58,927 nt of DNA from Terriglobales bacterium. Its GTDB lineage: Bacteria; Acidobacteriota; Terriglobia; Terriglobales; Acidobacteriaceae. The notes beneath the pieces were generated by a model that worked only from the letters and a program-made list of their open reading frames with translations, was not told the DNA's origin and did no database searches. The stretch spans positions 1 to 58,927 of the forward strand of contig DASPRM010000128.1 in assembly GCA_035624455.1 (NCBI GenBank), read 5' to 3'. Positions within the stretch are counted from its first letter, which is position 1; every line of letters begins with the position of its first letter. Below, piece after piece: positions 36,437-44,664 of the stretch. A program made the translations under genes and the position numbers.

Positions 36437-37071
36437 CCAGATATGGAAAGCTATTGACGGCCCTGCTAGCCGGCTGGTTTACGTTTGCTCTTGTCGGCTC
36501 GGCATTACATCTTTTCACAAATGCAGCGAATCAGATTGGAATCGCCGTAGCTCTTTCCGCCAGCAGTCCCATTCTGATCTTCTTTCTGTGGTTTGCCACT
36601 TCGGAAAATTTCCGCCGCTATACCTTGTCGCTGGACTCGAAGAGTCTGACGTCGCTGCAATCCTGGCGGGTCGTCGGGGTCGTATTCGTTCTCATGGAGG
36701 CGCGTGGCATCCTGCCTGCGATCTTCGCTCTACCTGCGGGATACGGCGACATCTTCATCGGAGCAACGGCCTCTTCGGTCGCACTCTGGCTTGCGAAACC
36801 CAATTATCGAAATACCTTCATCGTCTGGCAGCTACTCGGGATCACTGATCTGTTAACCGCAGTGACTCTCGGCACGACCGCGCGGCTGCTTGATCCACAT
36901 GGTCCCCTGATGACCCCGATGACCGTGCTGCCGCTGAGCCTGATCCCAACTTTCCTGGTGCCGCTGTTTTTCATTCTGCACGTGATCTGCATCGCCCAGG
37001 CCAAATCATGGAAGAAGGCGGTGCGCCCGGCTTCGTTGCCACAGACGCAGGCTATTAGAATGGTGGGATGA
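36433..37071 (+). CDS. integral membrane protein of unknown function
   Basis: A 212-residue protein with about six hydrophobic segments, starting LLTALLAGWFTFALVGSALHLF and ending FLVPLFFILHVICIAQA. Conserved-looking residues include EARGILPAIFALPAGYGDI. I do not recognise a family. It overlaps the marR stop by ATGA and its own stop overlaps the arsA-like start by ATGA, so it is tightly coupled to both. Confidence 0.75.
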   Translation: MTRYGKLLTALLAGWFTFALVGSALHLFTNAANQIGIAVALSASSPILIFFLWFATSENFRRYTLSLDSKSLTSLQSWRVVGVVFVLMEARGILPAIFALPAGYGDIFIGATASSVALWLAKPNYRNTFIVWQLLGITDLLTAVTLGTTARLLDPHGPLMTPMTVLPLSLIPTFLVPLFFILHVICIAQAKSWKKAVRPASLPQTQAIRMVG

Positions 37072-38258
37072 GGATCCTGCTGTTCAGCGGAAAGGGCGGC
37101 GTAGGCAAGACCAGCCTCGCCGCCGCCACCGGCGTTAAACTCGCACAACTGAAATATCGTACCCTGGTGATGAGCATCGATCCGGCGCACAGCCTGGGCG
37201 ATGCCTTCGATCTCGAAACTGATCTCTTCCACGTTCAGACCTCCGATCCCCTTCCCATCAACGATCAGCTCTCGATCCAGGAACTGAATATCCAAAAGGA
37301 AATCAAGCGCCACTGGCAGGAGATCTCCTCCTACGTGAGCTCGGTCCTGCGAACAACCGGGATCAGCGGCGTGGAAGCGGAAGAACTGGCCATCCTCCCC
37401 GGCATGGAAGAGCTCAGCGCCATGATGTACATCAACCAATATCGTCGTGAACACCGCTATGACGTGATCGTGCTCGATGCTGCTCCCACCGCCGAATCCA
37501 TGCGCTTCATCAGCATGCCCACCACGCTCGACTGGTATATGAAGCACATCTTTCCCTTCCAGCGCAGTCTTCTCAAGGCGGTGCGGCCCATCGCCAACCG
37601 CGTGGGGCCCATCGAATTGCCGCCCGACACCTACTTCGGCAACATCCGCGACCTCTTCCAGAAGCTGGAAGGCGTCGATGAGGTCATGGAGGATCCTCAA
37701 GTCACCAGCGTTCGCCTGGTGACCAATCCCGAGAAGATGGTGTTGCGGGAGACGCAACGCGCTTTCGTCTACTTCTCTCTCCATGGCCTCACCGTGGACA
37801 CCGTAATCGTGAACCGGGTGCTTCCTGCCGAAATCATGGACACGTGGTTCAATGAGTGGCACAGTTCTCAAGCCACGATCATGCACGAGATCGAAGATTA
37901 CTTCGCCCCAGTTCCGGTAAAGAAAGTGCCGCTATTCGCTCACGAAGTCCTGGGCAAGCAGCGGCTAGAGGATCTGGCGCAAGTGCTGTATGCTGAGAAC
38001 GAAGATCCGGCGGCCGTAACCCGAACGGAGAGGACTTACACTTTCGGCAAACGCGACGGTATCTACGAGATTCGAGTTCTGCTACCATTCGCCACCAAGG
38101 GCGAGATCGAACTATTCAAGAAAGGTGACGAATTGGTAGTGCAGGTCGGCACTTTTCGCCGTCACATCGGCCTGCCGCGATCAATGGCAGCCCTGTCGCC
38201 CTCCCGCGCCAGGCTGCAGAGCAAAACCCTCACGGTCGAAATGAAGGAGACACCATGA
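37068..38258 (+). CDS. ArsA/GET3-type ATPase
   Basis: A 396-residue single-unit ArsA/TRC40-like ATPase. The P-loop is SGKGGVGKTSLA (residues 8-16 region), the A motif partner is MSIDPAHSLGDAFD, and LDAAPTAESMRFI is the switch. The C-terminal 85 residues (YEIRVLLPFATKGEIEL, DELVVQVGTFRRHIGLP) resemble the alpha-crystallin-like domain found in bacterial ArsA homologues. No arsenite-binding Cys trio is apparent and no arsB is nearby, so arsenite efflux is unlikely; a chaperone or tail-anchored-protein role is possible. ATGA overlap upstream and downstream. Confidence 0.88.
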   Translation: MRILLFSGKGGVGKTSLAAATGVKLAQLKYRTLVMSIDPAHSLGDAFDLETDLFHVQTSDPLPINDQLSIQELNIQKEIKRHWQEISSYVSSVLRTTGISGVEAEELAILPGMEELSAMMYINQYRREHRYDVIVLDAAPTAESMRFISMPTTLDWYMKHIFPFQRSLLKAVRPIANRVGPIELPPDTYFGNIRDLFQKLEGVDEVMEDPQVTSVRLVTNPEKMVLRETQRAFVYFSLHGLTVDTVIVNRVLPAEIMDTWFNEWHSSQATIMHEIEDYFAPVPVKKVPLFAHEVLGKQRLEDLAQVLYAENEDPAAVTRTERTYTFGKRDGIYEIRVLLPFATKGEIELFKKGDELVVQVGTFRRHIGLPRSMAALSPSRARLQSKTLTVEMKETP

Positions 38259-38491
38259 ACGACACCAACAAAACTGAATCAACGACAAGCGAGAGAGCAG
38301 TCTATGAACCGTGCCCCTGCCGCGAAGTCGTCAACACCGTGAAGGAAATTTTCGGGATTTCTCCCGAGGTGCGGCAGCACCTGATTAATTCGCGGGTGGA
38401 ATTCCTCAAGGCTATCCGCGAGGCTCTCACCCAGCGCATCGATCGGCTATCGAGCCAGGCGCAGCCGGGAACCAAAGTCGCAGTCGAGTAG
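38255..38491 (+). CDS. small helical protein coupled to the ArsA-like ATPase
   Basis: A 78-residue soluble protein. After an acidic/polar leader come CPCREVVNTVKEIFGISPEVRQHLIN (two Cys near the start), then SRVEFLKAIREALTQRID as one amphipathic helix. No family known to me. It begins in an ATGA overlap with the ATPase gene, so equal expression is likely. A partner or cofactor role is inference from that coupling. Confidence 0.75.
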   Translation: MNDTNKTESTTSERAVYEPCPCREVVNTVKEIFGISPEVRQHLINSRVEFLKAIREALTQRIDRLSSQAQPGTKVAVE

Positions 38492-39732: not shown

Positions 39733-40095
39733 TCACTTACGCCGTTTCGGAACTTTCAGTCCGAGCGCCTTGATGACTTTCTTTGGGTCATCGTTAGGAC
39801 CCACCGCACCGTACCTCGCCCAGACAAGCAAGTGACGATTCTGAAACTGAACAAACGAGAGTTTTCGGTTCCGATCCTTATTGCCCTTGTCCAGCCTGCT
39901 GATAATCGCGTTAATTCGCTTGGTCGCCTCCGCCAGTTGGGCATCATGGGCGGCGGATAGCTGATTCACCTCCCAGAGACTGCACACGCTCTGCGAATTC
40001 CACTTGCTGATGAAACACTCCAACACCTTACACTGCTGGTCGGCGCACAGCCACTGGTATGTTTCAGTTGGTTTTGAGCCACCTGTATCAATCAT
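39733..40095 (-). CDS. hypothetical protein, tandem paralog 1
   Basis: A 120-residue unknown. Its C-terminal 75 residues match the next gene upstream (40227): AHDAQLAEATKRINAII, NKDRNRKLSFVQFQNRHLLVW and YGAVGPNDDPKKVIKALGLKV. The N-terminal part has three Cys (LCADQQCKVLECF) and differs. ATG at 40095 has GGAGAG upstream; a TTG at 40101 is also possible. No signal peptide. Function unknown. Confidence 0.75.
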   Translation of the reverse strand: MIDTGGSKPTETYQWLCADQQCKVLECFISKWNSQSVCSLWEVNQLSAAHDAQLAEATKRINAIISRLDKGNKDRNRKLSFVQFQNRHLLVWARYGAVGPNDDPKKVIKALGLKVPKRRK

Positions 40096-40226
40096 TTTCA
40101 ACTCTCCTCGCTCTGGAACGTATTCTTCCTTAGCGTGACCGTTGAGGATTGCTGCGGGCCCGTCGAGCGGTTCTGCTAGGGAGCGGAGTCTGGTTCCGGC
40201 TGGTTGCGAACTATCTCCCCCAGGGC

Positions 40227-40553
40227 TTACCTCACCTTCAATCTGAGCGCCTTGATGATGTTTTCGTCATCATCGTGGGGTCCGACCGCGTAACTTGCCC
40301 ACACGAGTAGCTGACGGTTCTGGAATCGAATGAACGAGAGCTTCCGCTTCGAGTCTTTGTTGCTCTCCTCGACTTCGCTCAAGATGGCGTTGATTTCTTT
40401 GGTGGCTTGGGCCAATTCGGCATCATGAAAAGCCGTCAGTTCCACTGTTTCCCACAGCTTGGTCAATGTCTGGTCGGCGGCAGGATCCTTAAAGCAGCAG
40501 ACTTTGCCGTCCTTAGAGGTAAAGGAATAGGTATCTTTTTGTTCTTCTTGCAT
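40227..40553 (-). CDS. hypothetical protein, tandem paralog 2
   Basis: A 108-residue unknown, paralogous to the gene at 39733: FHDAELAQATKEINAIL, NKDSKRKLSFIRFQNRQLLVW, YAVGPHDDDENIIKALRLKV. Its N-terminus (YSFTSKDGKVCCFKDPAA) is different and has a CC pair. A helix (AELAQATKEINAILSEVEE) then a beta-rich conserved part are visible. I recognise no family. The two genes are 131 bases apart on the same strand. Confidence 0.75.
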   Translation of the reverse strand: MQEEQKDTYSFTSKDGKVCCFKDPAADQTLTKLWETVELTAFHDAELAQATKEINAILSEVEESNKDSKRKLSFIRFQNRQLLVWASYAVGPHDDDENIIKALRLKVR

Positions 40554-40811: not shown

Positions 40812-41108
40812 CTATCCCCCCGCGATCGCCCCAATGATCAGCAACGGCTCCTTGCCCGACGCAACCTCATCCGGCAACGGTGTATCGGGTGGCTCGTGGG
40901 AGAGATCCTGCTCGCAGGCGAAAAAGCGCAGAAAGGGCCGCCGCTGCTGGGTCACGTGATCGCGGATCGCGCCCTTCAGCATGGGATACTGAGCCTCCAG
41001 GGCGTTGAGGACCGAGCGCTGCGTTGCCCGGCCCTCGATCTCCAGCTTCACCTCGCCGCCGACCTTCGCCAACGTCCGCAGATGTGTCGGAAGCACCACC
41101 CGGATCAT
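40812..41108 (-). CDS. MoaD/ThiS-like ubiquitin-fold protein
   Basis: A 98-residue beta-grasp protein ending in the diagnostic GG ([10 protein letters not shown]). The pattern [39 protein letters not shown] and [14 protein letters not shown] matches MoaD/ThiS-type sulfur carriers, whose C-terminal Gly is thiocarboxylated. No moaE, moeB or thiazole gene is near. Instead its ATG overlaps (ATGA) the stop of the BNR propeller gene. This suggests a carrier for something other than molybdopterin; the role is inferred. Confidence 0.85.
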
Positions 41109-42247
41109 GACAGCGTCTGGACCTCAACCGAGAGCACTGCGGGAAGATCGCGAACGATCGGCGCCCAGGTGTCTCCGGCGTCAGCCGAAGCGTACACCTG
41201 CCCACCGGTTGTGCCGAAGTACACACCGCATTTATCGAGCGAGTCCACGGCCATGGCATCGCGCAGCACATTGACGTAGCAGGCACTCTGCGGCAGGCCC
41301 TTGGTGAGTGCCTCCCATTCATTCCCGCCGGTGCGGCTGCGATAGACGCGCAGCTTTCCCTCCGGCGGGAAATGTTCGCTATCGCTCTTAATAGGGACAA
41401 CATAGATGGTTTCCGGCTGGTGCGCGTGCACATCAATCACGAAGCCGAAACCGCGCCGGCCGTCGGGAGCACCCGTATCGGTTGGGAGATTGCCATTTAC
41501 CTCGCGCCAATTCTCGCCCGCGTCATCGCTGCGCATCACGTCCCAGTGCTTCTGCATGAACAGCACATCCGGACGCGACTTATGCATGGCAACGTGGTGG
41601 ACGCAGTGACCGACCTCAGCCGTGGGATCGGGGATATATTGCGAATGCAGCCCGCGGTTGATCGGCCGCCACGTCTTCCCGCAGTCATCGCTGCGGAATG
41701 CGCCTGCAGCCGAAATGGCGATATAGATCCGCCCGGTATTGCGGGGATCGAGAATGATCGTGTGCAGGCACATGCCGCCCGCGCCCGGCTGCCACTTCGG
41801 ACCTGAACCGTGACCCCGCAGGCCAGCCAGCTCTTGCCAAGTGTTCCCGCCGTCCTTCGATTCGAACAGAGCCGCGTCCTCAATTCCGGCGTACACCGTA
41901 TCGGGATCCGTCAGCGACGGTTCCAGATGCCAGACTCGCTTGAACTCCCACGGATGTGGCGTGCCGTCATACCACTGGTGCGTCCCCGGGACACCGTCGT
42001 AGACAAACTTATTGCCCACCGGCTCCCAGGTTTGTCCGCCATCGTTGGAGCGCTGCATCTGCTGCCCGAACCAGCCGCTCGACTGCGATGCATAAATTCG
42101 ATTGGGATTCACAGGCGATCCCTTCAGGTGATACATCTCCCAGCCGGCAAAAAACGGCCCGCTGATCTCCCATTTTTCCCGTTTGCCGTCTGACGTAAGA
42201 ATGAATGCGCCTTTACGTGTTCCCACCAGAACGCGTACTTTGCTCAT
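41105..42247 (-). CDS. BNR/sialidase-like beta-propeller protein
   Basis: A 380-residue soluble propeller. Asp-box-type repeats recur: [59 protein letters not shown] and [12 protein letters not shown], six blades in all. It starts [21 protein letters not shown] with no signal peptide, so it is cytoplasmic, unlike secreted sialidases. No catalytic Arg triad can be assigned. Its gene overlaps the MoaD-like gene, which is transcribed after it. Function unknown; scaffold or enzyme. Confidence 0.85.
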
Positions 42248-42294: not shown

Positions 42295-42666
42295 TTACTT
42301 CATTGACTGGGCACTGCGCCACAATCCCATCATCCGTCCTTCCGGATCGGTGAAGAGCGTGAACGACCCCATCCCGGGCACTTCCTGCTCCTCGACGCAA
42401 ATCTTGCCGCCTTCGGCAACAATACGCTTGCGGTAAGTCGCCAAGTCATCCACGGCGATGTAGAACGTCATGTCGCCGGGCCAGGGGCCTTCGCGGTCCG
42501 GTTTTAGAATGCCGCCGTTGATGCCACCTTCACCTCCGGTGTCAACCAGACGATAGTTCATCTCCGGCATGTTCTGGATTTTCCAATCAAAGATTTTCTC
42601 GTAAAAAGCCGCGACTTTCTCAGGATCCTTGGACATCAGCTCCCAATGAACAACAGGTTTGCCCAT
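42295..42666 (-). CDS. VOC (glyoxalase/bleomycin resistance) family protein
   Basis: A 123-residue vicinal-oxygen-chelate fold: VHWELMSKDPEKVAAFYEKIFDWKI at the start (quoted as MSKDPEKVAAFYEKIFDW), a GGEGGINGGIL loop, and GSFTLFTDPEGRMMGLW, the terminal metal-side strand with the family's DPEG. A single betaalphabetabetabeta pair, so it probably dimerises. Metal ligands are not certain. It is 47 bases upstream of the BNR gene and shares its strand. Confidence 0.87.
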   Translation of the reverse strand: MGKPVVHWELMSKDPEKVAAFYEKIFDWKIQNMPEMNYRLVDTGGEGGINGGILKPDREGPWPGDMTFYIAVDDLATYRKRIVAEGGKICVEEQEVPGMGSFTLFTDPEGRMMGLWRSAQSMK

Positions 42667-44148: not shown

Positions 44149-44664
44149 CTACTCGCGCACTCGAACGGCAGGTGCGCCCGCCCTTCGGCCTCTGACCCCA
44201 CCTCGATCGACTCTTCTCTCCACGAATGACGGTATCAGTGGAGTCGCATCTCGCTCTTTCCACCGTCTTCTGGCTTCCGCCAGCACCCACTCCCGGTTCT
44301 TTTCCATCCTGGCGATGAGTGCGCAGGGAGCCGCGGTCTGCTGGTGGCGCGCACCCCAAATAAGTAGCTCGAGCATTACTGGCGCCAGATCAATTCCCTT
44401 CTCCGTAAGCCGGTAATTTACCCTTCGCCCATCGCTTTCTTCCGGTTCTGGAGAAATAATCCCTGCGGCTTCAAGTTTTTTTAGACGATCTGCGAGAACA
44501 TTGGTTGCGATTCCCTCGCCCGCTTCCTGGAATTGCTTGAAGGTGCGGAATCCACGAACCATCAGATCCCGGATGATGAGCAGCGACCAGCGATCCCCGA
44601 ACACCTCAAGGGAAACACTCACGGGACAGCCGGAGCGCGGCTTTGACTTAGGCCTCCGATGCAC
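44149..44664 (-). CDS. HxlR-family winged-helix regulator
   Basis: A 171-residue regulator: CPVSVSLEVFGDRWSLLIIRDL is the HxlR opening, with the Cys that senses aldehydes or oxidants in some members; FRTFKQFQEAGEGIATNVLADRLKKLE is the helix-turn-helix; and GRRVNYRLTEKGIDLAPVML is the wing. The start is GTG at 44664, since no ATG fits. The C-terminal 40 residues are Arg-rich and longer than usual. It probably regulates the genes that follow. Confidence 0.86.
   Translation of the reverse strand: MHRRPKSKPRSGCPVSVSLEVFGDRWSLLIIRDLMVRGFRTFKQFQEAGEGIATNVLADRLKKLEAAGIISPEPEESDGRRVNYRLTEKGIDLAPVMLELLIWGARHQQTAAPCALIARMEKNREWVLAEARRRWKERDATPLIPSFVERRVDRGGVRGRRAGAPAVRVRE

Follow-up and report, generated by a model that had tools for sequence, protein, structure and literature searches.

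MoaE, ThiG and CysM use sulfur from carriers of their own, and SAMP1 of Haloferax volcanii is an archaeal protein modifier, for which we know of no propeller partner. In the pathways for thiamine, molybdopterin, cysteine and thio-siderophores, the gene of the carrier is commonly grouped with that of the sulfur user, according to those parts of Iyer, Burroughs and Aravind (2006; PMC1779556) that are drawn on here, which also describe neighbourhoods of ThiS/MoaD, E1-rhodanese and JAB genes with signs of lateral spread. The CysO-Mec-CysM-MoeZR pathway of Mycobacterium tuberculosis comprises a MoaD-class carrier (3dwg_C), an adjoining enzyme partner and an E1-rhodanese activator, and mycobacterial MoeZR charges MoaD1, MoaD2 and CysO (excerpts of PMC3227635). 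Among Asp-box propellers, the solved structure 3b7f (Reut_B4987) from Ralstonia eutropha (Cupriavidus), recorded as a putative glycosyl hydrolase with BNR repeats, is seven-bladed and of function not known in the portion of PMC2716378 used here.

The window, i.e. the whole analysed stretch of 58,927 nucleotides from a Terriglobales bacterium, contains a pair of minus-strand genes that combines elements of these systems. The 5' gene (41105–42247), recognised by its open reading frame and by Pfam and PDB matches, encodes an Asp-box (BNR) beta-propeller of 380 aa, and the second gene (40812–41108), recognised by its open reading frame and structural model, encodes a MoaD/ThiS-like beta-grasp (ubiquitin-like) protein of 98 aa with a C-terminal Gly-Gly (GAIAGG). 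The stop and start codons overlap in the sequence ATGA (41105–41108, minus strand), through which the two genes are likely translationally coupled. An earlier note had described a GG-ended beta-grasp protein overlapping a BNR propeller by ATGA, and both genes are indeed present. No signal peptide was seen at the N terminus of the propeller, as judged by eye.

A Glyoxalase/VOC-family protein (42295–42666, minus strand; Pfam Glyoxalase, E 3e-08) is encoded 47 bp ahead of the propeller and may be co-transcribed with it, and an HxlR-family regulator (44149–44664, minus strand; Pfam HxlR, E 2e-19) is encoded 1.9 kb upstream of the pair. The latter is a recurrent neighbour of such pairs; neither gene is a core part of the unit. 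Pfam scans of 56 upstream neighbours of related pairs revealed HxlR in seven, and YCII, DoxX and glyoxalase-like domains in four each; together with the glyoxalase-like and HxlR genes of the window, these neighbours give a hint of stress-responsive expression. Neither a constant third gene nor a recurring sulfur-metabolism gene emerged around the pair when the neighbours at 77 related loci were clustered and 56 of the 65 upstream and 56 of the 69 downstream neighbours were scanned with Pfam. Nor did any fusion of propeller and MoaD come to notice. A role in anti-phage defence was considered and rejected, as neither window protein has a PADLOC match. Downstream of the pair, two adjacent minus-strand genes (39733–40101 and 40227–40553) encode small proteins that share 58% identity over 89 aa and are likely tandem duplicates, with no Pfam match over the cut-off. 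Further away, an ArsA/Get3-type ATPase with an HSP20-like domain (37068–38258, plus strand) overlaps by four bases a gene (38255–38491, plus strand) whose 78-aa product has no family match.

Modelled with AlphaFold2 (mean pLDDT 90.6, pTM 0.82), the 98-aa protein has its nearest PDB folds in SAMP1 (3po0; the top match, TM 0.74), CysO (3dwg_C) and BexX/CysO (4n6e_B), at TM 0.74–0.75 overall, a ranking that informs on fold only. These neighbours bear out the beta-grasp fold originally proposed from the sequence, and the protein is predicted to belong to the MoaD/CysO/SAMP1 type. Identity to SAMP1 is 14–17%, the SAMP1 profile match is weak (E 0.05), and no PDB sequence match was found up to E 1. 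The Pfam ThiS model scores 13 bits, under its 22.5 cut-off, recognition by this model being a matter of sensitivity and not a trait that defines such carriers; seven of nine pair-associated relatives tested pass it, while those at loci L188 and L189 fall below. The C terminus is well preserved: 119 of the 129 complete partners terminate exactly in GG. Eight partners carry 1–14 residues beyond it (L004, L028, L035, L052, L063, L068, L121 and L130), which a JAB protease could trim, a possibility prompted by the CysO-like protein of this genome described below. At L117 (6174–6809, plus strand) the MoaD domain runs on into a PNPOx-like domain, making the GG internal, and at L189 (5084–5395, plus strand) a Nonomuraea partner encoded immediately after the propeller has no GG and ends in ALA.

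As in the CysO pathway, the window pair combines a carrier of this fold with an adjoining partner and, in some relatives, an E1-rhodanese gene. Unlike CysO, its partner is a propeller rather than a PLP enzyme, and no JAB gene lies beside it. The CysM-type and JAB genes of the same genome accompany a separate carrier on another contig (C25), where a gene for an E1-rhodanese fusion (MoeBR) is clustered with a CysM-like PLP enzyme, JAB and a CysO-like protein. The latter adjoins the JAB gene, ends in GGKEELCKLINKNALFDS and shares 31 of 88 aligned residues with the window carrier.

A role of the small protein in molybdopterin synthesis, which the earlier note had named as a possible refutation, is unlikely. 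That note had seen no molybdopterin or thiazole genes nearby; MoaE, ThiF and Pfam ThiS have no match on the window contig, all whole-genome matches lying on other contigs, and Pfam scans of 48 of the 65 called window genes and two others detected no molybdopterin or thiazole gene. A MoaD-MoaE fusion is encoded elsewhere in the genome, ThiS and MoaE matches falling in one 330-aa frame on contig C69. The small protein was therefore rejected as the MoaD subunit of molybdopterin synthase, since MoaE is missing from its contig and the genome's MoaE is fused to another MoaD. It could still be a spare MoaD serving MoaE, as its fold family and the presence of MoaE matches in 93 of 100 relatives would allow, yet besides the dedicated fusion, two near-complete genomes (G025, 99%, and G065, 95%) contain the pair without a MoaE match, and we regard this reading as very improbable.

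The window propeller matches Pfam Sortilin-Vps10 (E 7e-13) and BNR (E 3e-12), and PDB 3b7f by sequence (E 2e-67). Its model (pLDDT 85.3, pTM 0.88; residues 258–267 and 288–291 poor) superimposes on 3b7f with Z 47.8, 2.2 A over 356 residues and 35% identity, while GH74 enzymes reach a Z of about 30, well below 3b7f. Based on this whole-length sequence and modelled fold match, the protein is assigned to the 3b7f-type Asp-box propellers. The 'six-blade' description given to it previously is most likely wrong: six Asp-box motifs are visible, though the homologue 3b7f, matched at Z 47.8, is seven-bladed, and the window propeller is best read as seven-bladed by homology, with the seventh blade formed, as the model would suggest, by N-terminal strands and the last strand. 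Residues 258–266 of the window protein form a nine-residue insertion (TGAPDGRRG), modelled at low confidence and absent from 19 other aligned members.

The pair is conserved among relatives. In a sample of 100 relatives, including the window's own genome (G000) and with kinship ignored, the window's MoaD type is present in 70 of the 72 genomes with the window's propeller type and in none of the 28 without it; by analyst-set thresholds the propeller type was defined as at least 75% identity (two as fragments) and the MoaD type as E 1.1e-27 or better, plus one contig-end piece. The genomes that break this pattern are G090, whose copy lies 58 bp from the end of a contig, and G022, which has a fragment of 55 residues. 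Among the 28 genomes that lack this propeller, MoaD proteins of other types are found. MoaD lies within 600 bp downstream of 60 of the 73 propeller copies and 0.8–5 kb away on the same strand for eight; for one copy it is 55 kb off on the opposite strand, and the contigs of the remaining four carry no MoaD. In eight relatives compared, where MoaD stands apart from the propeller, the intervening genes differ; at L205 (2217–2859) and L200 (3747–4157) genes named by eye as PIN-type toxin-like lie between propeller and MoaD, accompanied at L205 by an antitoxin-like gene.

A GG-ended partner was found within 300 bp downstream of the propeller at 95 of 108 loci, overlapping by ATGA at 84 of these 95. 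The 108 loci, in which some organisms are counted twice (e.g. L013 and L081), passed a minimal length check out of 111, comprising 80 from genome_contigs and 31 from whole genomes, all fetched by the propeller except for one of the latter, L004, which was fetched by its ThiS match. The 80 are the best of 573 confirmed relatives, their propellers being 76–85% identical to that of the window. They are labelled as Acidobacteria, Gemmatimonadetes, Planctomycetes, Verrucomicrobia, Rokuibacteriota, Eremiobacterota and others. Most come from metagenome bins, which may be mislabelled. Records among the 80 not tagged as metagenomic belong to Pseudonocardia acidicola, Hyphomicrobium facile, Granulicella, Edaphobacter aggregans and Acidipila rosea.

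Pairing extends to much more distant propellers. Among 154 distinct propellers in the fetched DNA (profile E <= 1e-40, identical ones merged, some loci fetched via MoaD or E1 matches), 131 have MoaD within 700 bp on the same strand, and 122 of 138 when only propeller-fetched loci are counted. MoaD is downstream in all 111 paired propellers of the class with at least 65% identity (124 members); within the same distance it accompanies seven of the 16 at 36–50% identity, and below 36% it is found with 13 of 14, in 11 of them upstream. Pairing thus persists down to about 30% identity, in either gene order. Thirteen window-type propellers fall beyond the 700 bp limit, ten with MoaD 0.7–5 kb downstream and three near contig ends. 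No MoaD was found in the fetched DNA of nine of the 16 propellers at 36–50% identity and one of the 14 below 36%; members without MoaD include Rhodobacterales (L182, L184 and L185), Streptomyces (L183), L119, L120, L122, L124, L125 and the contig-end L126. Three weaker relatives outside the count of 154 (L196–L198) likewise have no MoaD in the fetched DNA. Of 44 plasmid records with a match, 17 were examined, and MoaD was found in eight. MoaD precedes the propeller in Burkholderia stagnalis and Mitsuaria, where the products are annotated as 'MoaD/ThiS family protein' and 'hypothetical protein' or 'exo-alpha-sialidase', as well as in Cupriavidus metallidurans, Burkholderia cenocepacia, B. arboris, Paraburkholderia sp. 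PGU19 and the relatives L127, L128, L130 and L131. In the C. metallidurans homologue of 3b7f, this MoaD, ending in SGG, is encoded just upstream.

The recurrence of the pair in 131 of 154 distinct propellers excludes chance pairing, and the propeller and MoaD are a real unit; the neighbourhood survey proposed for such MoaD-BNR pairs has therefore found them conserved elsewhere, both across these propellers and in the presence/absence pattern of 70 of 72 versus 0 of 28 genomes. This co-occurrence and the existence of both gene orders weigh against the propeller being an ordinary sialidase or other glycoside hydrolase, such as GH33 or GH74, with an incidental neighbour. Such a reading would fit the annotation of relatives as 'exo-alpha-sialidase' or 'sialidase family protein' and the propeller fold of GH74 enzymes, but we consider it scarcely credible.

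Genomic linkage provides a candidate activator. An E1-rhodanese (MoeBR) gene lies beside the pair in four of 70 relatives: in G010, G021 and G029 the ThiF and rhodanese fusion directly follows the pair on the same strand, and in G031 it is next but one on the same strand, separated by one 127-aa frame. The other three pair-linked MoeBR proteins and the copy on contig C25 of the window's genome are 70–82% identical to the G021 copy, and all five carry ThiF and rhodanese domains. In each of the four genomes the only match to the MoaD alignment is the pair's own MoaD, and besides a MoaD-MoaE fusion Pfam ThiS finds only a short ThiS protein, presumably that of the thiamine pathway. E1 linkage occurs in four of nine such single-match genomes and in none of the 61 others (Fisher p 1.4e-4, kinship ignored, among the ThiF matches listed, which include the best match of each pair-bearing genome that has one). 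A locus with JAB and MoeBR genes but no MoaD in that stretch is found in two further genomes with a single MoaD-alignment match, G008 and G037.

ThiF is matched in 98 of the 100 relatives; the two genomes without a match (G002, 84% complete, and G036, 53% complete) both have the pair. Two ThiF matches are present in the window's genome, neither of them on the window contig: one is the MoeBR of C25 and the other falls in a 340-aa frame on C108. Among the 80 genome_contigs loci, with flanks of up to 6 kb, an E1-like match was found only at L039, in two broken, convergent frames, and a partial rhodanese-like match lies near the pair at L102. The earlier suggestion that an E1-like (MoeB/ThiF) gene might be found near such pairs is therefore borne out in the four relatives with MoeBR, but the arrangement is rare and the window contig has no E1 match. 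Linkage in these four relatives, though rare, points to MoeBR as the activator. In four other genomes (G016:C85, G030:C1, G088:C31 and G095:C48) MoaD-like and ThiF matches fall in one frame of 490–530 aa, likely natural MoaD-E1 fusions.

The association suggests a sulfur- or conjugation-type system. Because carrier genes commonly adjoin the genes of sulfur users in known pathways, the propeller could by analogy be the sulfur user. We judge the chances about evenly balanced that the pair is one unit consisting of an E1-activated sulfur carrier of the MoaD/CysO class and a dedicated cytoplasmic seven-bladed Asp-box propeller. The C-terminal glycine of the small protein would be adenylated and thiocarboxylated by the cell's MoeBR, its charged tail would dock on a conserved face of the propeller, and the propeller would use the carrier's sulfur on a substrate; we infer each of these steps, from activation and docking to sulfur transfer and the substrate itself.

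Conserved residues of the propeller are consistent with a single functional site. Among 14 clusters of less than 62% identity, taken from 175 aligned rows, the invariant positions, where a residue is present, are T10, K12, W152, H162, S179, H217, Q232, H234 and R329 (the last being column 320 of the alignment, owing to the nine-residue insertion in the window protein). In the model H162 and H217 stand at the start of inner strands and R329 just before one, so that the invariant residues likely form one site on one face of the propeller. The same residues are kept in the five of the 14 clusters that are led by propellers without a nearby MoaD, and the site may therefore be meant for a substrate of the propeller itself and not for the tail of the carrier.

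The small protein could instead be a non-covalent partner, that is, a regulatory or structural subunit of the propeller, whose GG is a relic or is packed into the interface. High conservation and likely translational coupling would agree with this, as would the one partner without GG, the eight with short extensions and the one fusion, while the exact GG end of 119 of the 129 complete partners and the E1 linkage in four genomes speak against it; such a role appears unlikely.

A second pair in the window's genome, on contig C5 (L115, 6066–8512, minus strand), brings a different element. Its 718-aa protein carries a Ser/Thr kinase domain (Pkinase, E 7.5e-53) ahead of a propeller of 43–45% identity with a basic C-terminal tail, and is followed by a ThiS-family protein ending in GGRL. 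Similar kinase-propeller fusions were recognised by eye in G004, G050 and G058, and in PADLOC the kinase half of the C5 protein matches generic kinase models. Lys/Arg-rich tails after the propeller, noted by eye in members of the 36–50% class (L115, L117, L118 and L121), raise the question of ubiquitin-like conjugation, in which the small protein would be joined to lysines and the propeller would be its main target or a target-selecting receptor. The closest fold being that of SAMP1 and the presence of a JAB protease in the window's genome also fit conjugation, but no such basic tail follows the propellers of the window type, no E2- or E3-like gene was noticed beside the pairs, and we hold it to be an improbable reading. 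Sulfur transfer is favoured over conjugation because the pair-linked E1 carries a rhodanese domain. A broader scheme can be offered tentatively, as possible rather than probable: an E1-dependent ubiquitin-like pathway with the propeller as acceptor enzyme or modified target, encoded by a two-gene cassette that spread laterally across phyla, with one branch under control of a fused Ser/Thr kinase.

Compared with the described units, the pair resembles those of PMC1779556 in placing ThiS/MoaD proteins outside the thiamine and molybdenum pathways, with E1-rhodanese; unlike it, those units have no propeller partner in the parts of that paper drawn on here, and its text nowhere uses the terms propeller, BNR or sialidase. 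In the corresponding portion of PMC1949818 the sole passage on a propeller is a figure legend. We recognised no description of a MoaD-propeller pair in the open-access literature; most subscription journals lie outside this scope, and an earlier description is possible. As genome records name MoaD beside a sialidase or hypothetical protein, the association is visible in them, and as far as the open-access literature shows it is undescribed.

To our knowledge, ubiquitin-like carriers supply sulfur to few enzymes. A propeller partner that has stayed about 80% identical across several labelled phyla would add a new class of sulfur-receiving enzyme. It would also give a function to the 3b7f family, whose structure is solved yet unexplained and which stands as a sialidase in records, and would offer a simple link between bacterial sulfur carriers and ubiquitin-like systems.
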